Source of the DNA: Pelagomonas calceolata
Taxonomy: Eukaryota; Sar; Pelagophyceae; Pelagomonadales; Pelagomonadaceae
DNA length: 64,000 bases
Direction: 5' to 3'
Assembly (NCBI GenBank): GCA_918797485.1
Contig: CAKKNE010000006.1
Span: 2,728,001 to 2,792,000 of the forward strand
Each line of letters opens with the position of its first letter. Position 1 is the first letter of the stretch. A program made the position numbers and the translations under genes. Under the pieces are notes generated by a model, which searched no databases, had not been told where the DNA came from, and worked only from the letters and a program-made list of their open reading frames with translations. Positions 3,217 through 62,582 of this stretch are shown in pieces.

Positions 3217-3240
3217 GCTAGTGTGTTACAGTACGCTAGC
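3217..3240 (+). promoter_or_regulatory. Palindromic promoter element (divergent pair sulfotransferase/lipase)
   Basis: GCTAGTGTGTTACAG followed by TACGCTAGC. It lies 140 bp from the sulfotransferase ATG (3077, minus) and 120 bp from the lipase ATG (3361, plus), in an otherwise featureless 283-bp gap. It belongs to the recurrent family described in the findings. Confidence 0.65.
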
Positions 3241-3360
3241 TGTCGAAGCGCGGCCGCGGCGGTTATTTGACCGCATCGGTTGCGTAGGAGTGCGTGCGAA
3301 CGGCGACGGCGTAGCCTGTGCCAGGCGCAACATTGCTGGGCATCCGTACGGCCAACACAG

Positions 3361-4638
3361 ATGCGGCTCCTCCACCTAACCCTCCTCACAATAACGCAGG
3401 GCGAGACCAGTAGATTGAGAAGAGGCCTCACGTCCATCGCGCGGCAGCTCGCGCCGCCGGAAGCTGTGGAGGCCTGCGCGTCGATTGGAAGAGCATTAGA
3501 AGCATTGGAGAATAGACGAGGTCGCAAACATAGACGAAGGGGCCCGCTCGTGCTCGACTTATTATTGCTAAGAGCGTTAGACAAGGACTGCGAGCGAGGT
3601 ACCAAAATACAAATCAAGGACCCGTCGTTCCTGCGGTTCGCGTGGCGCCACGCGTCGGCGGCCTACGGCTACGTGCTCCTGAAGGCCTGCGGGTTGCTAC
3701 CGGGCGTGCATATCCGCAGCTCCATTCAAAGATTAGACGAGTTGGGCATACGGGAGCGGTGCGGAGACGTGGACGTGTTTTTTGAAAATTTCCGGGACAA
3801 GAAGACGTTAGATGGCACGCCGAAATGCTATGTTTGTAGAGATGGGGACCGCGTCGTGCTATCAATCAGAGGCACGGCGGACATTTTTGATGCATTGACC
3901 GATGTTTTGTGTGAAGCGGTGCCGTTTTTGAATGGGGAAGCTCATTCTGGTATGCTGAAGGCCGCAGATAGATGTTTAGCAGCGACGGAAGCATCGATAT
4001 TGGAGGCCCTCGATTCTGCCCCGAGGAAATGCGACCTCGTAATTACCGGGCATTCCATGGGCGGCGGCTGCGCCATCCTGGCGGCGATGCGGCTCGACGA
4101 GCTGCGAAGGAGGCATGATGCGAAAGGGCCCGGGTCGAGGCTCGCGGACCGGTTGTATAAAGGCCAACACCACATCAGGTGTGTCGCGTTCAGTCCACCA
4201 CCGGTCGCCACGGTCGCGTGCCGCGCGTCGCGGAGGTGCTCTCTCGCATCTGTGTGTAGAGGCGAGGACGTCGTGCCGTCTTTATCGTTGCGAAGCGTGG
4301 CGAATTTACTAAGGAGCTTGGACGTGCTCGACGCCTCGCTGGAGGTTGGTCGAAGGGCGCGGCTCGTCGCGTTAGATACAGTGAAGACCGACGCCGTCGA
4401 TGAAGTCCGATCGAAGCTGGGGGCGCAATTATCAAGGCTGCGCGACGATTTTCACGGAGACGACCATCCAGCGCGTTTGGTTGTGCCGGGCGGCCTCGTC
4501 CGGCTAGGCCAGGAGCACCACGTCTTTGATGATAAACCGCCGGTGATCCGCGTGCGGGACGCGTCGGTGAGCGACCACACGCTTATGAGTGTCGACGCGT
4601 CCATCGAAGCACTGGCGGAGCACTATGTTGTCGACTAG
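3361..4638 (+). CDS. Class 3 lipase-like alpha/beta hydrolase
   Basis: The protein is 425 aa from the first ATG (MRLLHLTLLTITQG); the frame extends upstream only through a TTG. The nucleophile elbow GHSMGGGCAILAAMRL is near residue 230, preceded by the lid/oxyanion-strand region VVLSIRGTADIFDALTD and followed by CVAFSPPPVA, the order seen in fungal-type lipase_3 and sn1-specific diacylglycerol lipases. The likely role is hydrolysis of an acylglycerol or galactolipid ester. A catalytic Asp and His should lie downstream, with the C-terminal SVSDHTLMS the best His candidate. The N-terminus is hydrophobic but is not a clear signal peptide. It converges on the next gene with 21 bp between stops. 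Confidence 0.75.
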   Translation: MRLLHLTLLTITQGETSRLRRGLTSIARQLAPPEAVEACASIGRALEALENRRGRKHRRRGPLVLDLLLLRALDKDCERGTKIQIKDPSFLRFAWRHASAAYGYVLLKACGLLPGVHIRSSIQRLDELGIRERCGDVDVFFENFRDKKTLDGTPKCYVCRDGDRVVLSIRGTADIFDALTDVLCEAVPFLNGEAHSGMLKAADRCLAATEASILEALDSAPRKCDLVITGHSMGGGCAILAAMRLDELRRRHDAKGPGSRLADRLYKGQHHIRCVAFSPPPVATVACRASRRCSLASVCRGEDVVPSLSLRSVANLLRSLDVLDASLEVGRRARLVALDTVKTDAVDEVRSKLGAQLSRLRDDFHGDDHPARLVVPGGLVRLGQEHHVFDDKPPVIRVRDASVSDHTLMSVDASIEALAEHYVVD

Positions 4639-4659
4639 CGTATTAAGTATCACAGACTG

Positions 4660-5702: not shown

Positions 5703-5725
5703 CTAGTGTCTTAAGGACGCTAGCA
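5703..5725 (+). promoter_or_regulatory. Palindromic promoter element upstream of the 4660-5454 gene
   Basis: CTAGTGTCTTAAGG then ACGCTAGCA, 249 bp upstream of ATG 5454. The other neighbour is only the 3' end of the gene ending at 5748, so this copy can serve a single minus-strand gene. Nothing else is evident in the 293-bp gap. Confidence 0.6.
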
Positions 5726-5747
5726 GTTGCTTCTTAGGCCCCATCTA

Positions 5748-6879: not shown

Positions 6880-6904
6880 GCTAGCGTGTCTGTAACACAC
6901 TAGC
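6880..6904 (-). promoter_or_regulatory. Palindromic promoter element (divergent pair 6680/7112)
   Basis: In minus sense it reads GCTAGTGTGTTACAG then ACACGCTAGC. It sits almost exactly midway, 200 bp from ATG 6680 (minus) and 208 bp from ATG 7112 (plus). The rest of the 431-bp gap shows no other feature. Confidence 0.65.
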
Positions 6905-10553: not shown

Positions 10554-10789
10554 GATTTAAAAATCGGGGCGGCGGCGTATGAGAACTGAGGGCGTGCCGG
10601 GCGTACGGCAGGGCAAATTTCGAACGATCGTGCTCTGGCAGCTTTTTTAGCGTCTGAAGGGCCGATTTCGAGCGCCGCTTGCTTTGATTCTTCGCACACG
10701 TGTCAACCGAGTTGCTGGGAGTCTCGTCAAGTCTCGGTGGCCGCTGCAGGAGACGGCCTTGCGCTGTGCACTTTTGTCAGCATAATCAG

Positions 10790-10810
10790 GTAGCGTATCG
10801 ACATACTAGC
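10790..10810 (-). promoter_or_regulatory. Palindromic promoter element upstream of the 9774-10553 gene
   Basis: In minus sense it reads GCTAGTATGTCG then ATACGCTAC, 237 bp upstream of ATG 10553. It is the GTAT/ATAC variant that also occurs at 15494-15514. Confidence 0.55.
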
Positions 10811-12246: not shown

Positions 12247-12269
12247 GCTAGCGTAGCATTGATGCTAGC
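12247..12269 (-). promoter_or_regulatory. Palindromic promoter element (divergent pair 12174/12365)
   Basis: GCTAGCGTAGCAT then TGATGCTAGC. It is 73 bp from ATG 12174 (minus) and 96 bp from ATG 12365 (plus), so it occupies most of the 190-bp shared promoter. The centre differs from the CTTACAG class, but the GCTAGCG/GCTAGC arms are kept. Confidence 0.5.
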
Positions 12270-15493: not shown

Positions 15494-15514
15494 GCTAGCG
15501 TATGGACATACTAG
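15494..15514 (-). promoter_or_regulatory. Palindromic promoter element containing an upstream in-frame ATG
   Basis: In minus sense it reads CTAGTATGTCC then ATACGCTAGC. It lies 269 bp from ATG 15225 (minus) and 168 bp from ATG 15682 (plus). An ATG at 15502, in frame with the aminopeptidase, is part of the palindrome, which argues against it as the start codon. The rest of the 456-bp gap shows no gene. Confidence 0.55.
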
Positions 15515-15681
15515 AACACAAACAAAAACGCATCGAGGCGTTCATCGCTGCTAAAAACCAGCCCCGTTGGGCGCAAGCAGCGGCATTCGTGCTCCCGCGC
15601 TGCTGCCGATCATCTGAGACACGCGTCAGCTCTCCATCCACCAGCCTGCAGAGGCGATACAGCTGCACGCCAGTCGCAGCG

Positions 15682-17005: not shown

Positions 17006-18270
17006 CTAATCATCTTCAAATGTATTCGATCCCTGCCCCACGATGTATATCAAATTGAGCATCAGAGTGTACCAGATGAGATACGCAAAAAAACCGGCCA
17101 TTCCCCAGCCGAGCCCGCCGCACTTACTCCGGCCCGCTTTCGCACGCTGCAGGAACCTCACGACTATGGGCGGGACGGGGGCAAAAATGATTCCAAGTGA
17201 TTCGGGCCATCCCTGAGCCACGTAGGTACCAGAGACGCCAACGAACACCGTGCCAGGAATCGCGAGGACGCAGACGAGTTTGACGGCGTTTAGGATTCGT
17301 TCGTCGGCGTCCGTGACACGCACTCTTGCATTTTCTTCTGCCTCTTTGCGCGTGCGTTCGTCGAGACCGTGTCGAAATGCGAGGTCATCGATATCTAACA
17401 AAAAAACAACCGCCACGGTGTTCAGGCACACGTCCTTCACTCGACCGCCGTCATTCAGTACAAGCGCCACGACTGACAAGATTACGTTTGGAAGCATTAT
17501 ATAATACCGCGCAAAGTTCAGGCCACGTATGGCGAAGCGCCAGCCGCTGCTGACTTCTCGTCGCTCTGATACATCTCGCAAGGCGATCTCGCACAACATA
17601 GCATCACGTATCTCTGCAAACACGGCGAATGCGACGACCAGCGAAGCCAGGCCGAGGGTGAGCCAATCTTGAATCATCATCGAGTCGACTCGATCCCTCA
17701 CAGCGTCCCCATAGTGCTCGAAGCCTTTATCCGTCGTGCACGTGGCGCACATATTCTGGCTCCCTTTTTCGTCCCAGTAGCATTTTTCGGTCGAGTCGGC
17801 ATCGCAACAGTGCTCCCACTCACTTTCGCACCATTCGCACAGCCCCTCATCGCAGAAATTACCGCGGGGGCAATCTGAGTTTTCGCCTGTGCATTCAACC
17901 AGTGAGTTGGGCGGCAAAAGGTGATTATGCGCTGTTGTTCGCTGCACGTGCTTAAGTTAACCCCGATGGCGAATCCACTGGTGACGAAGCACTGCAGGAA
18001 TACAATTCCGATCGATATAGTTAGGAGCCCGTACTTGCGCCGCGGCGGCGTGTCCTCCCGAACAAGTCCGTAGTAAATCGTGGTCTGGTGGAGGCTGTGC
18101 GGCTCGCGCGTCGCGAGGCGGTGCAGCGTCGCACGTATCGTGTCTTCGTCAGGCGTCTTCGCGGGCGTGCGATTCGTGATCTCTTGGTCGCGCGGCGGCG
18201 CTGCCTTTGTCTCCTCGGCCTCCACATCCTTTTCTTCTGGAGCTACTTTACTCACGCTGCGGGCAGCCAT
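17006..18270 (-). CDS. Tandem Cys-rich multi-pass membrane protein, copy 1 (split by an intron)
   Basis: The exons are 18270-17943 and 17886-17006 (402 aa). Layout of this unrecognised family: a cytosolic N-terminus with LATREPHSLHQTTIYYGLVR; TM1 (KYGLLTISIGIVFLQCFVTSGFAIGV); a Cys-rich loop (CSENSDCPRGNFCDEGLCEWC ... CATCTTDKGFE); TM2 (QDWLTLGLASLVVAFAVFAEIRD); then about four more TMs with conserved GWRFAIRGLNFARYY, DGGRVKDVCLNTVAVVFLLDIDDLAF and DAVKLVC-like blocks. Splicing at TGC-A/GC-GAA restores CSENSDC, matching CSEHSDC/CSEHSEC of other copies. It is the only copy of five with an intron. Function unknown; the loop suggests an extracellular or lumenal receptor-like role. Confidence 0.75.
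17887..17942 (-). mobile_element. Paralogue-specific introner-type intron with GC-AG ends
   Basis: A 56-nt intron starting gcgaacaa and ending gaatgcacag; the next exon starts GCGAAAAC. The flanking octamers match at GCGAA, as a target duplication would, and the inner ends (CAGCGCATAATCACC versus CTGTGCATTCAACC in reverse) are inverted and similar. The other four tandem paralogues are uninterrupted here. No GT donor in the right phase was found, so a GC-AG boundary is the best model. Confidence 0.65.
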
Positions 18271-18581
18271 GCCCAGCCGTCGCGAGGCGTGGTCCCAGGC
18301 CTTCGGATTAATTGATTAGTCGTCGGCAGCATCTATGTAGCGCTCGCCAGCAGCGCTGCCCGCGGCGCCGCGCAAAATCCAGAGCATGAGCGCGTACCCT
18401 AATTGAATTGAATTGAGCAGGTGGAAGGGACGTCCTCTATGTCTATGTATATTCGAAAATCTTAAGAGTAGGGTCATGGGTAAGTCCCAGATAATCAGAC
18501 CCAGGAACCTGGCCAGAGCGCGCGCGGCCGAGTCCGATGCGACATCAGATCCGTCGACGTCGACGCGCGAAATCGCGTGAG
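18271..18581. other. Spacer between tandem copies 1 and 2, homologous to the spacer at 21.2-21.4 kb
   Basis: GATTAGTCGTCG then GCAGCATCT, the AT-rich ATTGAATTGAATTGA block and AGTAGGGTCATGGG then AGTCCCAGATAA recur in the same order at 21217-21416. The match is that of a duplicated unit containing one gene's 3' flank and the next gene's promoter. No gene is seen. Confidence 0.6.
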
Positions 18582-19763
18582 CTAGTCATCATCAAACATT
18601 CGCTCACCGTGAGCTTGGAAGAATAGCAACATGTACAACAAATGGGCCCATACGATATACACGAACCACTCGGCAAATCCCCAGCCGATCCCGCAGCAGG
18701 CCTCCTTGAGTTTAAGGCCACTCGATTTCATACGTTGCACGAACACCGCGACAATGGCCGGTAGAGGGGCGAGCAGTATCCCGCATTCGTCAGGATCGCT
18801 CGCGACCATGCCGTAGCCGCAGACGCCACCGAAAATCGCGCACGGGATGAGGACCACACATATCAATTTGACGAGGCCCATTGTTTGCAGGTCATCTTCC
18901 GTCACGCGTGCCCCTGAATGAACATGTTCCTCCGCTTCCATCCGCGTGCGTTCGCCGAGACCGTGCAGAAACGCCAGGTTATCCACCTCTAAGAGGAACA
19001 GAACTGCCACCGTGTTAAGGCACACATGCTTAACTGCCCCGCCATCATTAAGTACGAGCGCCACGACTGAATTAACTATACTTGGAAGCAGCAGAAAGTA
19101 GCGCGCAAAATTCAGGCCGCGGATGGCATATCTCCAGCCTCGTGGGACTTCCCGCCGCTTTGATATTTCTCGCAAGGCGATCTCGCACAACATGCAGTCC
19201 CGCATCTCTGCGAACAGGGCAAATGAAACGACTAACGAAGCCAAAAATAGCGTGACCCAATCTTGTATTAACATCGCGTCGACGCGATCCTTCACAACGT
19301 CCTGAAAAATTATCCATCCTTTGCTGCCCGTACACGCGGCGCACATATCTTCTCTATCGATGCCGTCCAGCCAGCAGGTGTCTGTCGAGTTGGTGGTGCA
19401 GCACTCTTCATGGATTGATTCGTAGCACCAATCACAAATCCCTGAATCGCAGAAATTGCCACGTGAAGTGCAATCGGAATGTTCGGCGCACGTGAAGTAA
19501 TAGATACCAGTGCTTAGTCCGGTGGCGACGAAGCACTGCAGAAATACAATTCCGATCGACGCGGCCAACAGGCCGTACTTGCGCCGCGGCGGCGTGTCCT
19601 GGCGGACAAGGCCGTAGTAAATTGTGGTCTGATGAAAACTGGTGGGCTCACGCGTCGCGAGATGGTGCAGCGTCGGCGCGTGAGGCATCATCCCGAGCGG
19701 CGCTGCCTCTACATCCTTGGCGTCGTCTCCTGGACTCACTTTACTCACGTTGCGCGCAGCCAT
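18582..19763 (-). CDS. Tandem Cys-rich multi-pass membrane protein, copy 2
   Basis: Start ATG 19763 (MAARNVSKVSPG), matching the start of copies 1 and 5; the longer frame upstream is Arg-rich and unlike its paralogues. The protein is 393 aa. The order is as in copy 1: LATREPTSFHQTTIYYGLVRQDTPPRRKYGLL, TM1, a Cys-rich loop (CAEHSDCTSRGNFCDSGICDWC, NSTDTC glycosylation-type sequon, MCAACTGSKGW), and five further TMs with FLLEVDNLAFLHGLGERTRMEAEEH. It ends in the acidic FDDD, like FEDD in copy 1. No intron. Function unknown. Confidence 0.75.
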   Translation of the reverse strand: MAARNVSKVSPGDDAKDVEAAPLGMMPHAPTLHHLATREPTSFHQTTIYYGLVRQDTPPRRKYGLLAASIGIVFLQCFVATGLSTGIYYFTCAEHSDCTSRGNFCDSGICDWCYESIHEECCTTNSTDTCWLDGIDREDMCAACTGSKGWIIFQDVVKDRVDAMLIQDWVTLFLASLVVSFALFAEMRDCMLCEIALREISKRREVPRGWRYAIRGLNFARYFLLLPSIVNSVVALVLNDGGAVKHVCLNTVAVLFLLEVDNLAFLHGLGERTRMEAEEHVHSGARVTEDDLQTMGLVKLICVVLIPCAIFGGVCGYGMVASDPDECGILLAPLPAIVAVFVQRMKSSGLKLKEACCGIGWGFAEWFVYIVWAHLLYMLLFFQAHGERMFDDD

Positions 19764-19961
19764 GCCCACGCCTCGGATTGATCGATTAGTTTCGTTGGGG
19801 CAGCATCTGCGACGAAGCGCGCACAGCGCCGCGCAGCGCCGTCTCCTGCCAGGCTCTGGCAGCCCGAGCAGATCCCGAGCTGGCCGGACGCCGCGCACCT
19901 CCGACCCCCTACGAGCCGTACTCGGAGCTCTGTTCAACAACTACCACATAACTAGACTTAC

Positions 19962-21176
19962 CTAACTTGCTTTTTCGTCGTGTTCGTAGTTCGAGACCCC
20001 GGTAATCACCGGAAACGAGAAGAACACGTAGTAGTACACGATCCACCCAAACAGTCCTCGGGCAAATCCCCAGGCGAATCCCCGCCATCGGTCCTTCGCC
20101 TCATGGACCGACTGGACCAGGGCAACGACCATGCACGGGAAGGGCGCGCAGACGCCGACAATGACCCACGGGTCGCTTGATCCGACGCCGCCCAGGATCG
20201 CCATGGGAATAGAGAACACGCACACCGTCTTGATGGCATCGACGATGCGCGCCTCGTTTTTAGTCAAAAGTATTCGGCCGTGCTGCTCGGCTTCTATCCG
20301 GAGCGACTCGTCCAGGGCGTGCGTAAAGGCAAGATTGTCGAGCTCCACAAGGAACAAAATTGCCACCGCGTTCAAGCAAATCGCGATGGAATTACCTGTC
20401 TCGACCACCACGAGTCCCATGACGCATCCGATGATGTAGGGCGCCAGCGCGAAAAGACGCAGATAGTTCAGCGTGTGCAGGGCCCATGGCCAGGCGCGAC
20501 CCACTTCGCGCTCGTCGCAGATTCTCTGCAGGGCGAAGCGGCACAGCGTCGCGTCGCGGATCTCGCCGAAGACCCCGTAGCTGACCACGACCGCCGCGAG
20601 GAGCAGTGCCGCCCAATCGTGAGGCATCATGGCGTTGATGTTGTCTCGGAGTACGGGCCTGTAGTTGATGAATTCCCCGCCGTCGTTCGTGCAGGCGTCG
20701 CACATGCCCGGATTCACGTCGACGTCTATCCTGCATTCCCCACCAATGCGCGTGGAGTTCCCGCAGCACTCGCGGTTGTCCCCGCCCTTGCACTTGTCGC
20801 AAAACCCGCCGCCAGTCGTTTTGTCCCTCTTGCACCACATGCCGCGAACGCAGTCGTCGTGGTAGTTACACGTCCGGAAACTGGAGCCCCAAAAAATCCC
20901 AATGGCAACGAACGCCTGGAGGGCCACGATTGCGTAGCTCGCGGCGAGCAGCTTGTACTTCAGCCGCGGCCCGCCCGTGTCGGACACGAGCGCGTAGTAC
21001 ACCGTCGCCTGGTGCAGCGAGTTCGGGTCCCGCTTCGCGAGCTCGTGCAGCGTGGCCTGGTCGGGCTCCGTCTCTAGCCTCCGAACGCGCCGCTCGACTG
21101 CCTCGAGGTCCAGCAGCGGCGCTTCCGCTTCCTTTGTGTCCTCGGCTGCCGGACTCACCTTCTGAACAGCGGCCAT
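19962..21176 (-). CDS. Tandem Cys-rich multi-pass membrane protein, copy 3 (most divergent)
   Basis: Start ATG 21176 (MAAVQKVSPAAEDTKEAEAPLL), by alignment with copies 4 and 5; the frame runs on upstream but without similarity. The protein is 404 aa. It shares KRDPNSLHQATVYYALV, TM1, a Cys-rich loop with extra Gly/Lys (CVRGMWCKRDKTTGGGFCDKCKGG ... MCDACTNDGGEF), FGEIRDATLCRFALQRI and FLVELDNLAFTHALDESLRIEAEQH. The loop carries a different Cys spacing from copies 1, 2, 4 and 5, and the middle block lacks GLNFARYF, so it is the outlier. Function unknown. Confidence 0.75.
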   Translation of the reverse strand: MAAVQKVSPAAEDTKEAEAPLLDLEAVERRVRRLETEPDQATLHELAKRDPNSLHQATVYYALVSDTGGPRLKYKLLAASYAIVALQAFVAIGIFWGSSFRTCNYHDDCVRGMWCKRDKTTGGGFCDKCKGGDNRECCGNSTRIGGECRIDVDVNPGMCDACTNDGGEFINYRPVLRDNINAMMPHDWAALLLAAVVVSYGVFGEIRDATLCRFALQRICDEREVGRAWPWALHTLNYLRLFALAPYIIGCVMGLVVVETGNSIAICLNAVAILFLVELDNLAFTHALDESLRIEAEQHGRILLTKNEARIVDAIKTVCVFSIPMAILGGVGSSDPWVIVGVCAPFPCMVVALVQSVHEAKDRWRGFAWGFARGLFGWIVYYYVFFSFPVITGVSNYEHDEKAS

Positions 21177-21441
21177 ACTGGCGATGCGCGTAGCAGAATT
21201 GCAGTTCAGGGAGCCAATGTCTTCCGGATTGATCGTTAGTCGTCGAGCAGCATCTGTGCAGCGCCACGTGCCGGCGTCAGGCGCGCTGCGCATCCAAATC
21301 CAGACCAGGGACCCTATTTGAATGGAATTGAATTCAGGCTTCGAAAGGCGCCTTCGATGACTAGTTATATTCCAGAGACTTAGCAGTAGGGTCATGGGCG
21401 AGTCCCAGATAAAATTGACCCCTGCAGCAAGGCCGCGTCGG

Positions 21442-22635
21442 CTATTTCTCATCAAATCCCTCTTCTCCCTGCGTTTGGTAGATCATCAAAGTCGTGACCG
21501 CAAGCAAAAAGAGCCAAAACACGACGAATCCGGCCACAGCCTCGCAGACGGCTCCGCAAGCTCCCGTTAGTCCGTTCGCTCTCGCACGTTGCACGAACAC
21601 GGCAACAACAAAAGGCAAGGGGGCAGCGACATACACAATATTCCCCCGCATTAGTCTGTAGCCACGGACGCCGCTGAAAACCACGCAAGGGATAAGGACC
21701 ACACAAACGATTTTGACGGCGTCCATGGTTCTCAGCTCGTCATTCGTCACGTGCCTCGCCCCGGCATTTTCCTCCGCCTCCATACGCACACGCTCGCTAA
21801 GACCGTGCAGGAAGGCTAAGTTATCGACTTCCAATAGAAACAAGACAGCAACGGTGTTGAGACACACGTCCCGTACTCGGCCGCCGTCAGCCAAAACAAG
21901 CTCCATGACAGACAAGACTACACATGGGAGAAACACGAAGTTTCTGCAAAAATTCAGGCCACCAATGGCGAAGCGCCAGCCTCGGGGGACTTGTGATATG
22001 TCGCGCAGAGCGCAGTGACACAGCACGGCATCGCGCATCTCTGCAAACACGGCGAACGCGACCACCAGCGAAGCCAGAAACAGCGCGAGCCAGTCTTGAA
22101 GCCTCATGGAGTCGACCCGGTCCCTCTGAATGTCCGGATACGTCTCGAAGCCTTTGCTGGTCATGCAAGCGGAACACAATCCTTCTCTCTCCTTTTCGTC
22201 CAGCTTGCGTGTTCTCCCTTCACGAGTCGCGCAGGTGTCCGTCGCGTTGGGTAGACAACAGGACTTGTATCTTTCTTCGCACCAGTCACACATCCCTTCC
22301 GCGCAATACAATCCACGGCCGCATTCCGAAATTTCGCTACACGAACTCATACTAACCCCGATGCTAAAGCCGGCGCCGACGAAGCACTGCAGAAATACAA
22401 TGACGATGGACGCGGCCAGGAGCCCGTACCTGCGCCACGCGGGCGTGTTCGGTCGGACCAGCCCATTATAGATAGTGGCCTGGTGAAAGCTCGTCGGCTC
22501 GCGGGTGGCGAGTTGATGCAGCGTCGGCGCGCTGGCTGTCGTCTCGAGCGTTCGAATCCTTGTCTCATGGTCGAGCAGCGGTGTCTCTGCTGCCTTTGTG
22601 CCCTCGGCTGCCGGGCTCACCTTGTGCTCAGCCAT
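21442..22635 (-). CDS. Tandem Cys-rich multi-pass membrane protein, copy 4
   Basis: The protein is 397 aa from ATG 22635 (MAEHKVSPAAEGTKAAETPLLDHE). It has LATREPTSFHQATIYNGLVRPNTPAWRRYGLL, TM1, a Cys-rich loop (CSEISECGRGLYCAEGMCDWCEERYKSCCLPNATDTC ... LCSACMTSKGFE), DWLALFLASLVVAFAVFAEMRD and FLLEVDNLAFLHGLSERVRMEAEENAG. It is closest to copy 5 in the TPAWR motif and the CCLPNAT segment, so these two probably separated last. Intronless. Function unknown. Confidence 0.75.
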   Translation of the reverse strand: MAEHKVSPAAEGTKAAETPLLDHETRIRTLETTASAPTLHQLATREPTSFHQATIYNGLVRPNTPAWRRYGLLAASIVIVFLQCFVGAGFSIGVSMSSCSEISECGRGLYCAEGMCDWCEERYKSCCLPNATDTCATREGRTRKLDEKEREGLCSACMTSKGFETYPDIQRDRVDSMRLQDWLALFLASLVVAFAVFAEMRDAVLCHCALRDISQVPRGWRFAIGGLNFCRNFVFLPCVVLSVMELVLADGGRVRDVCLNTVAVLFLLEVDNLAFLHGLSERVRMEAEENAGARHVTNDELRTMDAVKIVCVVLIPCVVFSGVRGYRLMRGNIVYVAAPLPFVVAVFVQRARANGLTGACGAVCEAVAGFVVFWLFLLAVTTLMIYQTQGEEGFDEK

Positions 22636-22921
22636 GCGCAGCTGAGAGATGGCGGCAGTGCTTTTCGCTCAGAGGCTCGAGCGCCAGCCAACGAGTTGTC
22701 GCCGGTCAATCTCGCTGCACGTCGGTCTACAGATATCAAATTGGGCAGCACTTGTGGCTTCTGCGCCTCACGCACAGCGCATTCTTTTGCAAGAGCTCGT
22801 CCGGGTTTTACGCGGCGCTAGAGCAGCGTTAGCGGAGCCTTCGCAGGGCGTACGTAGCCGCTAAGTAATTTCAAACAAACTAATTACTAGGCGAACCGGG
22901 AAGACGACCGGACGCGGCCCC

Positions 22922-24160
22922 CTATCTAACATACTTTGCTCCCTCTCCCGTCGCTTGAAGATATATCATCTGGTAGAACAATGCACCCCAGCCAACCATG
23001 GCGACGAACCCGACGATTGCCCAGCCAAGCCCGGCGCACACTCCCCTTCGTCCGTTCGCCTTCACTCGCTGTACGAACACCACTAACATGGACGGCAGAG
23101 GGGCGAGCATGTAACATACATTATCTGTTTCTCCGTCGGCCAAGTTTCTCGCGTAAGCACCACAGACGCCTCCGACAATCGCACAAGGGATCGTAAGGAC
23201 GCACACGAGCTTGACGGCATCCATGCTCTCCAGGTCGAGCTCCGTCACTTGTTCGTGCGCCCCTGCGTGCTCTTCCGCCTCCATGCGGGTGCGCTCGCCG
23301 AGCCCGTGCAGAAAAGCGAGGTTGTCAACTTCCAATAGAAACAACACTGCCACAGTGTTCAAACAAATATCTCTAACCCGCCCGCCGTTATCGTGTACAA
23401 GCGACATGACTGAAAAAAGTATCTTTGGAAATAGTATGAAGTAACGAGCAAAGTTCAGGCCGTGGATAGCAAACCGCCAGCCGCGGCTGACTTCTCGTCG
23501 CTTTGATATCTCTCGCAAGGCAATTTCCATCAGCATGCCATCCCGAATCTCCGCGAACACGCCGAACGCGACGACCAGTGAAGCCAAGAAGAGCGCAAAC
23601 CAATCCTGAATGAACATTGCGTGGACTCCTTCCCTTATAACGTCATGGTTAGTCTCGAATCCTTTGTCCGAAACGCACGTGTTACACATGCCTTCTCTGT
23701 CCTTCTCACCCATCTCGCGGCGATTATGTCCCTCTTTTTTATCGATCGAGCAGGTTGCTGTCGCATTGGGAAGGCAGCAGGACTTATGCCACTCTGAGCA
23801 CCCACTACAAATCCCCTCGTCGCAGAAATTTCCACGGGTGCATTCCGAGTGTTCGCTGCACGTGCTCGTGCCAACCCCGAAGCTTAATCCAGTGGCGACG
23901 AAGCACTGCAGAAATACAATCCCAATCGACGCTGCCAACAGTCCGTACTTGCGCCACGCCGGCGTGTTCGGTCGTACCAGTCCGTAGTAAATGGTTGATT
24001 GGTGGAAGCTCGTCGGCTCGCGCATCGCGAGATGGTGCAGCGTTGGCGCATCGGGTGTCGTTTCGATCGCTTTCACGCGTTCCGCTAACGTCGCCAGGTC
24101 CAGCAGCGGCGCCTCTGCTCCCGCGAGGTCTATTGACGGGCTCACCTTTTGGGCAGCCAT
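22922..24160 (-). CDS. Tandem Cys-rich multi-pass membrane protein, copy 5
   Basis: The protein is 412 aa from ATG 24160 (MAAQKVSPSIDLAGAEAPLL). It has MREPTSFHQSTIYYGLVRPNTPAWRKYGLL, TM1, a Cys-rich loop (CSEHSECTRGNFCDEGICSGCSEWHKSCCLPNATATC ... MCNTCVSDKGFE), DWFALFLASLVVAFGVFAEIRD, GWRFAIHGLNFARYF, FLLEVDNLAFLHGLGERTRMEAEEHAGA and terminal helices. It is the first gene of the array and stands head-to-head with the Tudor-like gene, so its promoter lies in 24161-24518. Function unknown. Confidence 0.75.
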   Translation of the reverse strand: MAAQKVSPSIDLAGAEAPLLDLATLAERVKAIETTPDAPTLHHLAMREPTSFHQSTIYYGLVRPNTPAWRKYGLLAASIGIVFLQCFVATGLSFGVGTSTCSEHSECTRGNFCDEGICSGCSEWHKSCCLPNATATCSIDKKEGHNRREMGEKDREGMCNTCVSDKGFETNHDVIREGVHAMFIQDWFALFLASLVVAFGVFAEIRDGMLMEIALREISKRREVSRGWRFAIHGLNFARYFILFPKILFSVMSLVHDNGGRVRDICLNTVAVLFLLEVDNLAFLHGLGERTRMEAEEHAGAHEQVTELDLESMDAVKLVCVLTIPCAIVGGVCGAYARNLADGETDNVCYMLAPLPSMLVVFVQRVKANGRRGVCAGLGWAIVGFVAMVGWGALFYQMIYLQATGEGAKYVR

Positions 24161-28648: not shown

Positions 28649-28671
28649 GCTAGTGTCTTACTGCCGCTAGC
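28649..28671 (+). promoter_or_regulatory. Palindromic promoter element (divergent pair 28501/28741)
   Basis: GCTAGTGTCTTACTG then CCGCTAGC. It lies 148 bp from ATG 28501 (minus) and 70 bp from ATG 28741 (plus). Confidence 0.65.
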
Positions 28672-28740
28672 AAGCATTATTTTTACGGGTCTGCTTTTGG
28701 CATCGTAGGGCTGCCCCCGAGCGATTTGACCATACTAAAG

Positions 28741-29889
28741 ATGATCCTCACGCAGTGCGCCGTCTGCGCCACCGAGCTTGGGCTGACCTTGGGGAAGAAA
28801 TGCGGCCGCTGCAGTACACGCTACTGCGGACCCGAATGCCAGGTGCAGCACTGGAAAGAGGGCGGCCACGACCAGATCTGCAAGAAGATTAAAAAGGCTG
28901 GTGGCGCAGAGCAATACAACGCAGATAAGAAGTGCGCAGAGGCCGTCGCGGTCGCAGTCGAGGCGTGCGCGGAGGACACCAAGGGCCAGACGTGCTACAT
29001 CTGCACGCAGGCCCTCCACTGGAAGACGAAGGAGGGCCTCGTGCGCATGTGCGCGTGCCGCGGGACGGCGGGTTTCGCGCACGTGTCGTGCCTGGCGGAG
29101 CAGGCGAAGATTTTGTGTGACGAGGCCGAGGAGAGAAATTTGTTTGGTACTGAGAGAGGAAATTCGAGGTGGGATCGGTGGAACAAGTGCAGTCTGTGCG
29201 AGCAAAAATACCACGGCGTCGTGGTGTGCGCGCTCGGGTGGGCGTGCTGGAAGACGTACGTGGCCCGTAACGTGGGGAGGCCGCAGGCGGATATGATTCG
29301 GTGCTTGGCAATGGGCGTGCTCGGGATCGGTCTCTACAGTGTGGGGCACAGCGAGGACGCGTTGTCCGTGCAAGAGGCCCAATATCCTATGATGAAGCGC
29401 CTTGGCGCACCAGAACAAGAGCTACTCACCGTGCAATGCAATCTTGCGAGCACGTATTTAGCCCTCGGACGGGACGAAGATTGCCTGCGCGTGCGGCGAG
29501 ACGTCTACTCTGGGCGGTTGAAGCTCCTTGGAGACGAACATCTGGGTACCCTCTCAGCAGCTCACAACTACACGTCGGCCCTTCATCTTCTGAAGCGTTA
29601 CGAAGAAGCTAAGGCATTCACGCGCAAAGTAATCCCCGTGGCACGACGCGTTCTCGGAGAGAGTCATGAAATCACGCTAAAGATGCGCTGGTGTTACGCC
29701 GAGGTGCTCCATAAAGCCAACGGCGCCACACTAGACGATAACCGCGAGGCCGCGGCGACGCTCGAGGAGGTAGCAAGGACCGCGCGGCGCGTGCTCGGTG
29801 GCGCGCATCCGTTCGTAGGAATGATTGAGCGGGCTTTGCCATTTTCGCGAGCGCTCCTCCGCTCCAGCGAAACGTCGAGGGGTGCGTAA
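28741..29889 (+). CDS. MYND zinc finger / RING-CH / TPR protein
   Basis: The start is ATG 28741 (MILTQCAVCATELG). The protein is 382 aa. An N-terminal MYND finger (CAVC...CGRCSTRYCGPECQVQHWKEGGHDQIC) is followed by a RING-CH/RINGv-type finger (CYICTQ...MCACRGTAGFAHVSCLAEQAK...WNKCSLCEQKYHG, about 85-155). The C-terminal half consists of kinesin-light-chain-like TPRs (CNLASTYLALGRDEDCLRVRRDVYSGRLKLLGDEH and HNYTSALHLLKRYEEAKAFTRKVIPVARRVLGE). A RING-CH with TPRs suggests an E3 ubiquitin ligase using the TPRs for substrate or partner binding. Remnants of two related genes lie at 38.6-39.9 kb. Confidence 0.82.
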   Translation: MILTQCAVCATELGLTLGKKCGRCSTRYCGPECQVQHWKEGGHDQICKKIKKAGGAEQYNADKKCAEAVAVAVEACAEDTKGQTCYICTQALHWKTKEGLVRMCACRGTAGFAHVSCLAEQAKILCDEAEERNLFGTERGNSRWDRWNKCSLCEQKYHGVVVCALGWACWKTYVARNVGRPQADMIRCLAMGVLGIGLYSVGHSEDALSVQEAQYPMMKRLGAPEQELLTVQCNLASTYLALGRDEDCLRVRRDVYSGRLKLLGDEHLGTLSAAHNYTSALHLLKRYEEAKAFTRKVIPVARRVLGESHEITLKMRWCYAEVLHKANGATLDDNREAAATLEEVARTARRVLGGAHPFVGMIERALPFSRALLRSSETSRGA

Positions 29890-38638: not shown

Positions 38639-39619
38639 TTACTCTTCGCGGGCGCGGAGGTCTGCTTGCGCGCATCGCAGGGTTTCCTCAATATTCATTG
38701 CGAGCGGGTGCGCACCACCGAGCACGCGCCGCGCAGTCGGTGCCAATTTCTCGAGTATCGTCACGGCCTCGCGGCCGCCGAGCGTCTTCGCGTAATTCGC
38801 CGTCATCTCGAGCGTAAGACCATCATTCTCGCCGAGCACGCGTCGCGTCGAGGGGATCGTTTTGCGGAACAGTGCCCGGGCTTCTTCGAGGTGCTGTAGA
38901 CGAGCAAGGGTCACCGCGTAGTTGTTGGCTGCTACGTGGGTATTTCTATATTCTTCGCCCTCTAGCCTCAAGTACCCAGAGTATACATCTCGTTGGATCT
39001 GCAGTGCCCGCTCGTGCCTTCCAAGCGCTTGGTACGAGCCCGCAAGATTGCTCCGCGCGGCGAGCATGCTGTGTTCCGATGCGCCAAGGCGTCGCTTCAT
39101 AGACAACTCGGCCTCTTTCACGGACAAAGCGTCATCGTGGTGGTCGGCAGCGGACAGAACGATTCCAAGCCCCGACATCGCCAGGCGCCGAAACCGGTCC
39201 GCCTCCGGCTGGCCCACGTACGTTTTCCAGCACGCCCACCCGAGCGCACACGCCACGACGCCGTGGTAATCTTGCTCGCACAGACTACACGTGTACCACC
39301 GCTCGAACCGCTCAGTCATCGCCTTAAGGCCCAAATTGTTATCCTCACCCTCCTCGACCAAAATCTTCGCCTGCTCCGCCAGGCACGACACGTGCGCGAA
39401 GCCCGCCGTCCCGCGGCACGAGCACCCGCGCACGAGGCCCTCCTTCGTCTTCCAGTGGAGGGCCTGGGTGCAGATGTAGCAATTCTGGCCCTTCGTGTCG
39501 TCCGCGCACGCCTCGACGGCCTCCGCGACGGCCTCTTTGTATTTTTTGTCGGCGTGGTATTGGCAGCCAACAACTGCGCGTTGACCCTTCTTAATTATCA
39601 GCGCTTCGAAGAAACCAAA
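38639..39619 (-). pseudogene. Truncated RING-CH/TPR paralogue lacking MYND domain and start codon
   Basis: Reading minus from 39619, the frame is open but has no ATG before the RING-CH motif. Homology to the protein at 28741-29889 begins at IIKK...QYHADKKYKEAVAEAVEACADDTKGQNCYICTQALHWKTKEGLVRGCSCRG and continues through CSLCEQDYHG and the TPRs (SNLAGSYQALGRHERALQIQRDVYSGYLRLEGEEYRN...RRVLGENDGLTLEM) to the stop at 38639. The MYND half is missing; in its place lies the inverted remnant at 39557-39880. It is either a decayed copy or an internal exon of a gene with an unseen start. Confidence 0.6.
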
Positions 39620-40798: not shown

Positions 40799-40822
40799 GC
40801 TAGTGCCTCTTTGGCTAGCTAG
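40799..40822 (+). promoter_or_regulatory. Degenerate palindromic promoter element (divergent pair 40545/41063)
   Basis: GCTAGTGCCTC then TTTGGCTAGCTAG. The arms are kept but the CTTACAG core is not. It lies 254 bp from ATG 40545 and 241 bp from ATG 41063, near the midpoint of a 517-bp gap in which no gene is supported. Confidence 0.45.
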
Positions 40823-43386: not shown

Positions 43387-43410
43387 GCTAGTGTCTTACA
43401 TGACGCTAGC
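43387..43410 (+). promoter_or_regulatory. Palindromic promoter element (divergent pair PhyH/delta-tubulin)
   Basis: GCTAGTGTCTTACAT then GACGCTAGC. It is 45 bp from the PhyH ATG (43342) and 210 bp from the delta-tubulin ATG (43620). Confidence 0.65.
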
Positions 43411-46319: not shown

Positions 46320-46341
46320 CTAGTGTCTTACAGCCGCTAGC
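46320..46341 (+). promoter_or_regulatory. Palindromic promoter element (divergent pair Sec14/46649)
   Basis: CTAGTGTCTTACAGC then CGCTAGC, the copy closest to consensus. It lies 114 bp from ATG 46206 (minus) and 308 bp from ATG 46649 (plus); the 442-bp gap shows no other feature. Confidence 0.65.
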
Positions 46342-51861: not shown

Positions 51862-51878
51862 GCTAGTGATGTTACAGC
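51862..51878 (+). promoter_or_regulatory. Half copy of the palindromic promoter element
   Basis: GCTAGTGATGTTACAGC, the left arm and core without the right arm. It is 21 bp upstream of ATG 51841 (minus), the closest of all copies. The remaining sequence to 52117 shows nothing else. Confidence 0.4.
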
Positions 51879-53158: not shown

Positions 53159-53565
53159 GGCGTTTAAGAGAGCTACCCTCTCGCTACTGGTTACAAATTT
53201 GCCACGGCGCGCGACCGGGCTCGCCTCCTCTGGGGACCAAGTGACTCGGACAGGACTGCGAACGCTGATCTCGCGCTGCGTCGGGCTCGTAGCCGTGTAG
53301 ATTGGCGCGTGAGCAAAGCGAGCCCGCGCAGGCTAGCGGCATGTAAGACACTAGCAAGCTGTTAGGCGGGTTTTCTTCACGGAAGACGTCCTAGTCCCGA
53401 TAACCAGGCCGCGACGTACATATATAGTTGCTTTGCTTAGAGCTAGGCCGCCTAGCCACCCGGCCGACGCCTCCCTAAGCCTCCCTACGCCCCTCATACG
53501 CCGTCGCCCCGAGTGTTCGCTCGGAGGCGACGACGGCGAGGGGGAATAGGTAACGTAGAGAGACG
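53159..53565. other. 407-bp intergenic region with a promoter palindrome
   Basis: The palindrome at 53332-53354 is the only recurrent element; the rest, down to the IQ gene stop at 53566, shows no supported gene. Confidence 0.4.
53332..53354 (-). promoter_or_regulatory. Palindromic promoter element upstream of SAE1
   Basis: In minus sense it reads GCTAGTGTCTTACAT then GCCGCTAGC, 174 bp upstream of ATG 53158. It serves one gene; the other neighbour is a 3' end. Confidence 0.65.
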
Positions 53566-55271: not shown

Positions 55272-56756
55272 ATGAAGCGCTCCATCAGCCAGGAATCGAT
55301 CGTGACGCAGCGCCCGGCGTTCCTGCGGACTCTGAGCATCGAGCCGGACTCGCCGGCGACGCCGGGCCTGAACTACGATGATGATCCGGCGGGCAAGAGT
55401 CCGCGCGACCGCCGGCCGATCTTCTGGGGCCGGCGGCTGAGCCCGAAGGGGCCCCCGGGGTCGCCAAAATTCGCGGCGCCGCCCCGGGGCCGCCCGCCGT
55501 GGGCGTACGTTTTGACCACCGCGCTCGTCGCCGGACTTTTGTTAATAGTGCACGTCGGCGTCAGCGGCGAGCTCTCCTCCACGAAGGCCGAGGTCGCGCG
55601 GCTGACCGAGGCGCTCCGGCACCACGAGGAGCCGTCCCCGGCGCTCCGCGGCAGCGCGCCATCGCCAACGGCGCGCCGCCACCTCGTCATGGCCTGCGCC
55701 GTCGATGCGACGCACCTCGACTTCCAGAGGTTCGTCTACTCGCTGCGGCTCGAGGCGAATTATAAGGGCGACGCCGCCCTCTTCGTCCGGGAGGACACGC
55801 TGCCGTGGCTGCGGGAGGCCGTCGACGTCGTCACCGTCGAGCATACAATGCCCTGCCCGAGCGACCCGAAGCGGACGTGCGTTGCGGACGCGGCCTGGGG
55901 CCCCGTGCCCGTGTCCCTCGCGCGGTTCCGCTACTTCCGGGACTACCTCGAACGGCACGAGCCCTACGACGCCGTGCTCTGGACGTCCTTTGCAGATACG
56001 TTCTTCCAGCGCGACCCCTTCTCGCCGCCGCCGTTCTCCGAGTTAATTGAAGAGAAGAAGCTCGTGATGTTTGGGGAGCACCCGGCGCGGCCGTTGCTGC
56101 GCCAAGTCTACACCATGAATGCGATCCACGAGTGTTATGGATTGGGCAAATTGGAAGAGTTCGTCAATGATGAGACGCCAGCGCTCACGGCGGAGGCTCT
56201 GCTCGGCGCGGGCAGCGCGGTCAAGAGCTACCTCGGGCTGTTGTTGTTCCACGTCGAGGCCTGTGTGGAAATCAACCAGTGTGTCGGGTGCATCTCTCGG
56301 CGATGACGCGGCCGTGCTGGCTCCGTCGAGCGGTGAGGAACCGGCATCGCCACGCCATCGAGCAGGCGTCGCGTCGATGGCGTGGCGGTCGACGCGACGA
56401 TTCGAACGCGCCGTAAAATTTTGATTTCCACACAGGTCGAGGCCTACTTCCCGAAGTCCAAGACCTGCGCGACGTCGCTCAGCGCGGACCAGGGCCACCA
56501 CAACGTCGTCGCGTTCTCGAAATTGCCTCGGGACCTCTTTCGCATCGCGGCCTACAACACGGGCCAGGTTTTTGTCGCCGGCCAAACGAGACTCGCCAAG
56601 GAGAAGATCAAAACGGAGGACGGGTACGTACTAGATGCGGAAGGCAAGCGCGTGCCCGTGGTCCTCCAGTACTCGTCGTTCGACTTCCTGAATGACAAGG
56701 CGAAGGCCATCGTCGAGACCCACGCGAAGGAGGCTATCAAAAGGTGGAACGTGTAA
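55272..56756 (+). CDS. Type II membrane glycosyltransferase-like protein, two exons
   Basis: Exons 55272-56252 and 56436-56756 give 433 aa. A basic, Ser/Pro-rich cytosolic tail precedes one anchor (AYVLTTALVAGLLLIVHVGV, about 76-95) and a short stem. The lumenal domain has AVDATHLDFQRFVYSLRLEANYKGDAALFV and YDAVLWTSFADTFFQRDPF, the latter resembling the DxD-like strand of algal nucleotide-sugar transferases. Splicing joins LLLFH to VEAYFPKSKTCATSLSADQGHHN and keeps the frame. The donor nucleotide and the acceptor glycan are unknown. The intron is the clearest introner of the window. Confidence 0.75.
56253..56435 (+). mobile_element. Introner element forming a complete intron, perfect TIRs and target duplication
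   Basis: The 8-bp target GTCGAGGC is at 56253-56260 and again at 56436-56443. Between the copies lies a 175-bp element with perfect 15-bp inverted ends, CTGTGTGGAAATCAA (56261-56275) and TTGATTTCCACACAG (56421-56435). Splicing gt (first target copy) to ag (last bases of the element) restores the host sequence exactly. Inside is a perfect 14-bp stem, CGCCACGCCATCGA (56348-56361) with its complement (56374-56387). The intron is 183 nt, in frame, and contains a stop. Confidence 0.85.
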
Positions 56757-56789
56757 GTAAACCTACTCTGTGTACACACATCACATTTT

Positions 56790-57993: not shown

Positions 57994-58016
57994 GCTAGTG
58001 TCTTTCAGGCGCTAGC
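57994..58016 (+). promoter_or_regulatory. Palindromic promoter element (divergent pair 57935/58412)
   Basis: GCTAGTGTCTTTCAG then GCGCTAGC, 59 bp from ATG 57935 (minus) and 396 bp from the Myb ATG (58412). The remainder of the 476-bp gap is GC-rich and shows no gene. Confidence 0.65.
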
Positions 58017-59527: not shown

Positions 59528-59684
59528 CCCCCCCATCACCTTACCCGATGTCCCCCTTATCGCGCGCGGCCTAAACATGTCGACGACTTATACATGAGCT
59601 TACGTTCTTCTTTGGGGACATGTAGGGGAGAGAGGAGGTGCGTTCTTTTTTGGGACAGGGTAGAGGGAAGGGAGAGATGCGCGT

Positions 59685-62268
59685 TCACGCGCTGGCCGCG
59701 ACGAGCGGCGCCTCGACGGCTATCGTGGGGACGGTCCGCGACGCCATCGGCCCGACGACGCGGTCGGGGTCGATCGCCGAGACGTAGCGATTTCCGGCAG
59801 CGCGCACGTAGGCGCCGTCCAGCAGGTCGACCCGTCCCTCGGAGAACCCGTAACAGTCCTTGAGCGCATCAACGACGCGCTCGGTCCCATAGAACGGGTG
59901 CGCCGCGACCGAGTCATCAGTGATGCCGTGGCCGAGGCCGATAACTGCCGTCCCGCCGACCGAGAGGTAGCCGGTCGCTCGGCCCTCGAACAGGAAGCTG
60001 TAAACGTAGGCCACGTCGCGATCGACGACTGGCATCGTGACTTCGGCGGGGAAGCTCCACCGATCGCCGCCTGGCGCCATGCACGGGTGCCACGCCGTCG
60101 CGCGGACGTCGCCGACGGCGTAGAGGGTTGGATCTAGCATGCGCGTCCGGACCACGCACCGGACGACCGCCGGTCCATTTGTCAGCGCGTCCACGAGCAC
60201 ATCGCCCTTGACGACGTCGGAAACGCGCTTCCTCGTACCGTCGAACAGCCGGGCCAACGAGTCGCCAGCGACACAGCCGTTGCCGCGGTAGTGGTAGGCG
60301 CGCGCCATCGCCGCGCCCGACGCGACGCCGCAACCTTCCCTCGACGGCTTCGGCGGCGGTAACTTTGAGAAGGCGGCATCCGCATCTGCCAGGAGATCCT
60401 TCGCGACCGAGCCGAAGTAGTGCTGCACGCTCTGGTCCTTAAAGTTGTGGCACGTCCCGCGTCGGTGCGCGGACGCAAGAGACCGGCAGTAGTACCGGCC
60501 CCACCGCTTCCACTCGCGCTGGGACGACGTGGCTATCTTGACTTGGCCTTCGAGATCCATGATGCCTCCCGCGATACGATTCGCCGCCACATCGGTACCG
60601 ACCAAACCAGCCAGTTCGTAGACCTCGCTCGTTGGAGCCCCCTTCGGCAGCGACAACGCCAGCGCGATGCGGCGCTCGGAGCGAGGCGGCGCCCGTCTTA
60701 AGGCCGCCTCCCAGCCGTCCCGCCACGCATCCGCGCGGGCCATCTCCCGCAGCGCATCACTCGCGCCGGCGCCGCTCGCCTTCGCCACCGCGACCGCCGC
60801 GCTCGCGTCCGCCGCGGCGAGCTCGTTCCCCAACCCGAAGAGGGGCCCGGCGAGCATTTCTCGCGCCTCGACTGCGAGCTCGGCACATACGCGGCGCGTC
60901 GACGCCCAGGCGTCCGTCACTTCGCTCCGGATGAGCGTTGCGCTTACGTTCTGCTCCCTGTCTCCATCATCGTAGTCGACGTCGTAGCCCGTCGCCGTCG
61001 CCCTGGAGATGGTCCCCGCGTACCACGTCTGGCGGCCCTGGAACTGGGCCTCTATTCGGTCGCCCGGCTGGAAGCTCACCATCTCAGCTGGAGGCGGCGA
61101 GATGCGAAGTGCGTCGATGAGCTGCATGCGGAAGCGCTCGGCCGCCGCGAAGCGCCGGTCGGCGACGGTCGCCACGTGGACGACGCCGGTCGCGCGGGCT
61201 AGGTTTTGCCCTTGGCGGTCCGTCAGGAGAAGCTTCTCGGGGTTCGCCAAGAGCGCGTGTTTCGTCTCGCCGCGGCGGAGGTCGCCCAGCGGCAGATCAT
61301 TTAAAAGTGCGTCCGACGCGGCTGACGCCCGGAGCGACGCCGACAGGTTCGTGAAGGTCGTGCCGACCATGCCCGCGTCGGGCACGAAGGCGAAGATGCC
61401 GCCCGCCTCGCTCGCGAGGCCGTCGAGGACCTCGTCGTCCAACGAGTAGCCGAAGCCGAACGTGTGGACCGTGATGTCGCTGACGTCCTTCTCTAGTCGC
61501 TTCATCTTGCGCAGCGCCTCGACCTCGCCGCCCTCGGGTCTCGTATTCGGGAGGCCGTCCGTCAGCAACACGACGGCCCTGGGCAGCGACGACCCCTGCT
61601 TGTTGAGCTCGCCCAATGCTTTTTCGAGGCCGCCCCACAAATTCGTGCACCCCCGGGGGGCGAGGTCGTCGAGGACCGTGTGGAGCTGTTTGACCTGCGC
61701 GGGCGGCGGTGAGGCGCGCGCCGTCGAGCCGAAGCGGCGCGCTTACAGGCTGCACTATTTTCTTCAGGAAAGAAATAAGTTGTGGGTTTGCTGTGAGCAG
61801 CCTTGCGCGCCGCGATTGAAGTTTCGGACGCCGGAACGCTACGTGGTCCTCGTCGACGCTCGCCGACGGCAAGACCAGCTCCGCGATATTGTCGAAGGTG
61901 ATCAGACCCAGTCTCGAGTCGGCGTCGAGCGTCGCTGCCAGCGCCCGCGTCGCGTGCTTGCAGACGTCCAAAATCGAGAAGCCGTGCTTCTGCGCTTGGC
62001 CGGACGCGTCTTGTACCTTACATTCGGTCGACATCGAGCCAGAAATGTCCAAGACGACCATGAGCTCGATTGCGGTCTTCGTGGCCGGCGCGTCGCATTT
62101 GATTTCGACGAGGGCGGCGTCTTCGATGCCCTCGACGACGCGCAGGGCGAAGCTGTCTTTCGGGGGGGTGGGCAGCTTGTTTTGTAGTAGCGCGGGCGAG
62201 TTCGGCGGCGCCGGTGGGCCGGGCAGCGCGAAGGCCTTGCGGGGCAGTCGTGGCGATTTATTTGTCAT
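59685..62268 (-). CDS. vWA - Tudor-like - Hint (Vint) protein, two exons
   Basis: The exons are 62268-61843 and 61694-59685 (811 aa). The vWA domain has a MIDAS start (LMVVLDISGSMS) and LGLITFDNIAELVLPSASVDEDH; splicing adds VKQLHTVLDDLAPRGCTNLWGGLEKAL and VVLLTDGLPN. A Tudor-like segment follows (FQPGDRIEAQFQGRQTWYAGTISRATATGYDVDYDDGD). The C-terminal Hint fold begins GCVAGDSLARL and contains ATAWHPCMAPGG; this is the vWA-Vwaint-Vint arrangement seen in protists. A Hint domain can cleave its own N-terminal bond through the Cys; no Asn-Cys intein end is apparent. A second donor (gtaagc, about 61755) is also in phase. Confidence 0.78.
61695..61842 (-). other. Intron interrupting the vWA domain
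   Basis: The preferred donor is gtagcg after GACCAC and the acceptor cgcgcag before GTCAAACAG (148 nt). It gives vWA spacing typical of the family. The alternative donor gtaagc nearer the acceptor would keep about 29 more residues. The donor-side sequence CGTCCGAAACTTCAA faintly resembles the introner terminal repeat. Confidence 0.6.
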
Positions 62269-62582
62269 GTTTTTTTAGTTCTATGTGCGTAAATGTGCGT
62301 GTTTGCTCTGTCCTATGCTCTGTCTGAGATTTTGGAGACTTCCTGGCGGGTTTGGCAAAATTCTTCAAGGGCAGCCTTCGTGGGACGCGGTTGCGGCGTC
62401 GCGGCGAGTCCTCGGGACGGGTTGTTGCGGAGGATGTGGCTTTCCTACGGCTGTCGGGTGCTTGCTAGTGTCTTACAGCTAGCCCCACTCTGCCTGGACA
62501 GCAACAGCAAAGCGCCTTCCTTAGGCCCCCAGACCACCTGCTGACACGCGTGGACTTTCGAAAACATCTGTCGTGTCGAGGG
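62269..62582. other. 314-bp divergent promoter with palindrome
   Basis: It contains the compact palindrome at 62464-62483; nothing else is recognised. Confidence 0.4.
62464..62483 (+). promoter_or_regulatory. Compact palindromic promoter element (divergent pair 62268/62583)
   Basis: GCTAGTGTCTTACAGCTAGC, a 20-bp version in which the right arm follows the CTTACAG core directly. It is 196 bp from ATG 62268 (minus) and 100 bp from ATG 62583 (plus). Confidence 0.65.

Follow-up and report, generated by a model that had tools for sequence, protein, structure and literature searches.

A two-armed, orientation-free sequence element upstream of many Pelagomonas calceolata genes, and its probable role at promoters

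Pelagomonas is among the most abundant eukaryotes of the ocean (PMC13284251). The published genome of Pelagomonas calceolata consists of six nuclear and two organelle contigs with a GC content of 63%, 16,667 genes, and 0.45 introns per gene (PMC9481584). Here we describe a short sequence element that recurs in 5′ intergenic DNA of a 64-kb stretch of this genome (contig 6, positions 2728001-2792000, 62% GC), referred to below as the window. The original prediction, made from the letters of the window, had listed 14 copies of a palindromic element, and all 14 coordinates were read again in the sequence. A two-arm search pattern, GCTAG[TC][GA][TG] and [ACG][CT][GA]CTAGC with 3-11 bases between the arms, matched 12 of the 14 with at most one mismatch (3217, 5702, 6880, 10789, 12247, 15494, 28649, 43387, 46319, 53332, 57994, and 62464; Table 1). 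The remaining two entries are weak: 40799 has two mismatches and 51862 is a left half only. At this threshold the window contains 13 matches, including a doubtful one at 33459, which is a density somewhat above that of the genome sample described below. Nine divergent gene pairs with one copy each were recovered on recounting, in agreement with the prediction, although the left-hand gene of the pair at 3217 is uncertain.

Table 1. Copies of the two-armed element in the window (columns: positions, strand, description, basis).
3217..3240	+	Element copy GCTAGTGTGTTACAGTACGCTAGC	Motif scan
5703..5724	+	Element copy without the outer G, (T)CTAGTGTCTTAAGGACGCTAGC	Motif scan
6880..6904	-	Element copy GCTAGTGTGTTACAGACACGCTAGC; divergent pair	Motif scan
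10789..10810	-	Element copy GCTAGTATGTCGATACGCTACC; TCGAT-type core, 1 mismatch	Motif scan
12247..12269	+	Element copy GCTAGCGTAGCATTGATGCTAGC; variant core, divergent pair	Motif scan
15494..15515	-	Element copy (T)CTAGTATGTCCATACGCTAGC; variant core, overlaps a possible upstream ATG at 15502	Motif scan
28649..28671	+	Element copy GCTAGTGTCTTACTGCCGCTAGC; divergent pair; a paralogous MYND/TPR gene (L041) has also kept a copy at its promoter	
43387..43410	+	Element copy GCTAGTGTCTTACATGACGCTAGC; divergent pair	Motif scan
46320..46341	+	Element copy (T)CTAGTGTCTTACAGCCGCTAGC; divergent pair	Motif scan
53332..53355	-	Element copy GCTAGTGTCTTACATGCCGCTAGC; tandem region	Motif scan
57994..58016	+	Element copy GCTAGTGTCTTTCAGGCGCTAGC; divergent pair	Motif scan
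62464..62483	+	Element copy GCTAGTGTCTTACAGCTAGC; short form, arm overlapping the core; divergent pair	Motif scan
40799..40819	.	Doubtful copy, 2 mismatches (control level)	Motif scan
51862..51877	+	Doubtful half copy GCTAGTGATGTTACAG	Sequence reading

Mismatch counts and locations were obtained from the window plus 20 random 10-kb stretches, together 264 kb, with the reversed sequence as control. This sample contains 22 copies without mismatches (none in the control) and 42 copies with at most one mismatch (7 in the control). With up to two mismatches the numbers are 76 and 94. Because the control overtakes the signal at this level, only the two stricter levels were counted and the copy at 40799 was dropped; copies with degenerate arms were left out of the counts. 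Across the whole genome (32,445,274 bases in 8 contigs), the strict pattern GCTAGTGTN5-10CGCTAGC is matched exactly at 2,017 places, and its reversed control at a single one. With as many as three mismatches allowed, the 24-base consensus GCTAGTGTCTTACAGGCCGCTAGC occurs 1,935 times (control, 0), and the relaxed pattern CTAGTRTN5-11CGCTAG has 3,966 matches against 9 for its reversed control. The density is thus far above chance, as the original prediction had stated.

The consensus of the element is (TT)GCTAGTGTCTTAC-NN-GMCGCTAGC, with a length of 20-26 bp. Among the first 100 copies found with the relaxed pattern, 52 are 24 bp long, 16 are 23 bp, 11 each are 22 and 25 bp, and the remainder are 20, 21, or 26 bp. 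The left arm and the adjacent CTTAC are nearly invariant and are followed by two to three free bases and the right arm (C/A)CGCTAGC, and TT is the preferred outer context 5′ of the left arm. The common arms and the CTTACAG-like core reported earlier are found in most copies, but ∼10% carry a TCGAT-type core in place of CTTAC, for example GCTAGTATGTCGATACGCTAGC. The arms do not form the true palindrome that had been proposed. Genome-wide, versions with symmetric arms number only 38 (TG/CA) and 18 (CG/CG), compared to the 2,017 matches of the asymmetric form, while a free choice of arms would make about half of the copies symmetric. The element therefore has a built-in direction, even though it is used both ways. 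Since the arms are obligately different and perfect palindromes of two identical half-sites are this rare, binding by a plain homodimer is unlikely. An obligate difference between the arms of an orientation-free element poses a specific puzzle about how a factor would bind it.

To locate the copies, we used a three-periodic Markov gene finder trained on the same 264 kb, and intergenic regions were classed by the strands of the flanking coding blocks. With at most one mismatch allowed, the 44 divergent regions contained 24 copies, the 70 tandem regions 16, the 49 convergent regions one, and the 204.7 kb of coding DNA none. The single copy in a convergent region sits in a long gap (∼800 bp) that may hide a gene. 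The original prediction had placed all copies outside coding sequence, and had proposed that its reading should fall if 5′ intergenic DNA proved no richer in copies than 3′ flanks or coding DNA; both the placement and the reading stand on these figures. The distance from the element to the start codon is 56-411 bp at 64 of 65 5′ ends and 56-333 bp at 62 of them, with a peak at 150-250 bp (37 of 65), and tandem regions show the same distance. A lower bound of 21 bp, given earlier, was not reproduced. Orientation relative to the gene is the same in 32 cases and opposite in 29, confirming that it is independent of the direction of transcription. A recognizable copy was found at ∼40% of the called 5′ ends (64 of 158), and the earlier claim that the element marks most 5′ regions was an overstatement. 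This proportion fits ∼4,000 copies for 16,667 genes, if one copy in a divergent pair serves two genes. A general promoter element is expected to be enriched in the intergenic DNA 5′ of genes, within a narrow range of distances from their starts, as is the case here. The neighboring genes are functionally mixed and include a lipase, PP2C/kinase, M24 peptidase, tubulin-type GTPase, CRAL/TRIO, ThiF, Myb, and Fe-S assembly genes. Pfam domains were compared between genes that carry the element and genes that lack it; a domain was found in 13 of 20 and 7 of 17, respectively, and no clear functional class emerged.

Ribosomes scan leaders, and leaders therefore avoid ATG, which makes upstream ATGs usable as a tracer of transcribed leaders. 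Between the element and the start codon, 35 ATGs occur in sense and 135 in antisense (CAT); when triplets in frame with the called start are removed, 26 and 107 remain. On the gene side, the first 15 bp beyond the element contain 4 sense and 5 antisense ATGs, and the stretch 15-60 bp beyond it contains 3 and 29. Base composition does not explain this depletion, since the five other orderings of these three bases give ratios of ∼0.5-1 over that distance. In tandem regions, 18 sense and 30 antisense ATGs lie upstream of the element, a difference that is not significant. The change in the ratio at the element has a Fisher p of 8e-10 over all regions, where divergent pairs are counted from both sides so that the two halves are not independent, and of 0.045, barely significant, in tandem regions only. 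The depletion suggests that transcribed leaders begin within ∼15-30 bp of the edge of the element, and on both sides of it in divergent pairs.

A scan of bacterial and archaeal genomes (GTDB) returned five copies of the element, all of them in contigs of metagenome-assembled genomes (MAGs) from marine-looking samples; IMG/VR viral contigs contained no match. Three of the five contigs (L009, L011, and L012) align wholly or partly to the P. calceolata genome at ∼89-96% identity. The other two, NZGT01000013.1 (L010) and NZGT01000054.1 (L013) of MAG MED672, are syntenic with contig 6 at ∼80-94% identity, mostly 82-87%. Judging from these alignments, all five are contaminating or chimeric pelagophyte DNA, and L010 and L013 derive from a sister species or a deeply split lineage. 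Within the handful of loci that these contaminating contigs provide, three alignable sister pairs have kept 63 of 69 element positions, against 474 of 720 positions (66%, gaps counted) in the 120 bp on each side. Most changes affect the core, the G/A position in the left arm, or an outer base. A fourth copy (L010:5352-5374, compared to C6:2239185-2239208 on contig 6) lies at a similar distance (∼190-235 bp) from the neighboring conserved block, in the opposite orientation and in DNA that is otherwise largely unalignable. It is either an in-place flip or a replacement, and in both cases indicates that the orientation of the element can change without its loss. In paralogous MYND/TPR genes (window position 28741, and L041), 73-80 bp separate the called start from the copy that each has kept upstream. 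An inverted duplication with 87% identity is located inside MYND/TPR-type genes of the window (28912-29142 and 39332-39562). GTDB MAGs labeled as Spirochaeta, proteobacterium, and Desulfobacteraceae hold pelagophyte contigs or chimeric pieces, a contamination that is worth flagging.

From these sequence comparisons, it is highly probable that the element is an orientation-independent promoter element adjacent to transcription start sites, and the site of an abundant, putative sequence-specific DNA-binding factor. Perhaps one in three genes would be served by it. The original prediction had judged a splice or translation signal a poorer fit than either a dimeric binding site or a core promoter that works in both directions. 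The exclusive 5′ location, the lack of orientation bias, the two-sided ATG boundary, and the conservation in the sister lineage support the promoter element, and of the dimeric site only the plain homodimer on a perfect palindrome has become unlikely, as the arms differ. We infer that a protein binds the element, activates rather than insulates or represses, and sets the start position. Such a factor would contact two related, unequal half-sites, GCTAGTGT(CTTAC) and, on the other strand, GCTAGCG(G/T)C, and could be a heterodimer or a single protein with two non-equivalent DNA-binding modules. The link between the two contacts would be flexible, because the spacing of the arms varies (20-26 bp overall). 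The factor may open, clear, or organize the promoter, with initiation then occurring just outside the element on one or both flanks, whatever the orientation of the element; in divergent pairs, a single copy would serve both genes. A more far-reaching version can be proposed tentatively, in which one asymmetric 24-bp element would be a lineage-specific bidirectional core promoter. Together with a pelagophyte-specific heterodimeric or two-module factor it would set the starts on both sides by itself, and would replace TATA/Inr-type elements in many genes.

Several observations weigh against the promoter element adjacent to start sites. The gene starts are our own predictions from a home-made gene finder and not those of the published annotation, and the ATG depletion marks a transcribed leader rather than an exact start. 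In addition, the L010 counterpart (near 7631) of C6:2236930 has no right arm (GCTAGTGTCTTTTATCTAGC), and a weak copy at L010:461 is without a clear counterpart. One lost right arm and one unmatched weak copy among six usable sister comparisons imply that turnover occurs.

Binding sites of yeast Reb1, Abf1, and Rap1 are abundant, are recognized by few factors, and serve many unrelated genes, and the Abf1 site is composed of two half-sites and a spacer. Their sequences differ from that of the P. calceolata element, and they are usually farther from the start. The site of a general regulatory factor of the Reb1/Abf1 type would mark promoters without positioning starts, as a nucleosome-positioning, insulator, or replication-licensing site, and this reading is possible but doubtful. 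It agrees with the orientation independence, with the central place of the element in divergent regions, and with its presence at only ∼40% of 5′ ends, but the ATG-depletion boundary, ∼15-30 bp from the element, is nearer than the usual distance from the center of a nucleosome-free region to the start, and single-gene 5′ regions carry copies too. To a large extent it overlaps with the promoter element that we prefer. We consider it unlikely that the element is instead the site of a condition-specific regulator that controls a regulon. Its absence from many genes and its two core classes (CTTAC and TCGAT types) would be in line with a regulon, whereas ∼4,000 copies would not, and the diversity of the neighbors, which range from tubulin-type and Fe-S assembly proteins to a lipase and a Myb protein, speaks against a narrow one.

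Thousands of copies of a quasi-palindromic sequence, in a genome known to contain introners and other repeats (PMC9481584), could also be dispersed mobile remnants, such as a miniature inverted-repeat transposable element (MITE), an introner, or a palindrome resembling repetitive extragenic palindromes (REPs), inserted near promoters by chance. This is very improbable. When 55 flanks were compared all against all, nothing beyond the short core was common to the copies, and the only matches were between paralogous genes or nearby, separate interspersed repeats that exclude the element. Neither is insertion indifferent to the ends of genes, given the near-absence of copies from convergent regions (1 of 49, compared to 24 of 44 divergent ones). 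Chance insertion likewise would not explain why the distance to the start codon is fixed and why, in the sister lineage, the copies are better conserved than their flanks. A mobile element was rejected because the flanks are unshared and the location is restricted to promoters. Even less probable, in our view, is that the element forms an RNA hairpin in the 5′ leader of transcripts and so affects their translation or stability, although the arms of the canonical strand can pair with one G-U and copies are upstream of start codons. A hairpin should have a fixed orientation, in contrast to the nearly equal use of both; symmetric arms, which would pair perfectly, are ∼50 times rarer than the wobble version; and the element borders the ATG-depleted leader on its upstream side and is not inside it. 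The random orientation and the avoidance of perfectly pairing arms led us to reject the hairpin. A mini-intron, suggested by GT...AG in the core, was set aside because the copies are outside genes and unoriented.

The words 'motif', 'palindrom-', and 'promoter' are absent from the main texts of the P. calceolata genome paper (PMC9481584) and of a study of this alga from 2026. Literature searches with sequence words of the element returned no paper that describes such an element, and the matches looked, by their titles and abstracts, like chance or primers. The earlier statement that no described element with such a sequence is known agrees with the literature searched, which likewise gives no description of how pelagophyte promoters are specified. 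The nearest counterpart by function that we found is the human CGCG element (TCTCGCGAGA), which belongs to TATA-less CpG-island promoters. Lying within 50 bp of divergent starts, it acts in both directions whichever way round it is placed, also when its palindrome is imperfect (PMC6192621). Both are short, palindrome-like, orientation-free promoter elements near the starts of functionally mixed genes. The sequences are unrelated, and the consensus found here is without the CGCG (BANP-type) core; in addition, the CGCG element is 10 bp long compared to ∼24 bp here, works in a symmetric form that is nearly absent here, and has ∼450 copies in annotated human promoters compared to ∼4,000 in 32 Mb. 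The P. calceolata element is thus, on this comparison, not a member of the CGCG family. Among stramenopiles, the oomycete INR, FPR, and DPEP elements have 7-bp definitions (YCAYTYY, MWTTTNC, and SAASMMS) and forward/reverse ratios of 1.8-5.9 (PMC3599244). They too are promoter words near starts, each in only part of the genes, but they are short and mostly gene-oriented, while the P. calceolata element is long, unlike them in sequence, and unoriented (32 same, 29 opposite). The M4 motif of human promoters (ACTAYRNNNCCCR), bound by THAP11, resembles it in having hundreds of conserved promoter copies with a dedicated factor (PMC5006282). M4 is not two-armed and has no sequence similarity to the element beyond chance. 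With ∼4,000 copies and a sharp consensus, the element should allow transcription starts to be predicted from sequence. It could also serve as bait for the putative factor, and in genetic tools as a compact promoter acting both ways.

Other features of this DNA were recorded alongside the element. A second word, GGCTGCCC, occurs in 5′ intergenic DNA with or without the main element, for example at window positions 28709, 31583, 33644, 46453, 54867, 58245, and 62369. Per kb, it occurs 0.73-1.03 times in divergent and tandem regions, 0.07 times in coding DNA, and not at all in convergent regions, and it is likely a second promoter element. The word GCGTCGATGGCGT recurs in intergenic DNA between tandem and convergent genes, and in places two copies lie close together in inverted orientation (for example, window 10872, 39893, and 56353-56375; L026 9641-9663); it is possibly a 3′-end, intron-related, or repeat feature. 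An interspersed repeat of ∼157 bp begins near GTTACGGTGCTAGGACTAGTGGGCGG and ends with TAATAACAG; it is present at L010:299-455, with at least 30 similar places in the genome, and also in L024 and L031. Its sequence resembles an intron with a branch point, and it may perhaps be one of the introner families. The window also contains a tandem cluster of related minus-strand genes (17006-24160), with no Pfam match in those scanned, and a minus-strand gene with Vint and Vwaint domains (intein-like Hint) at 59685-61505.

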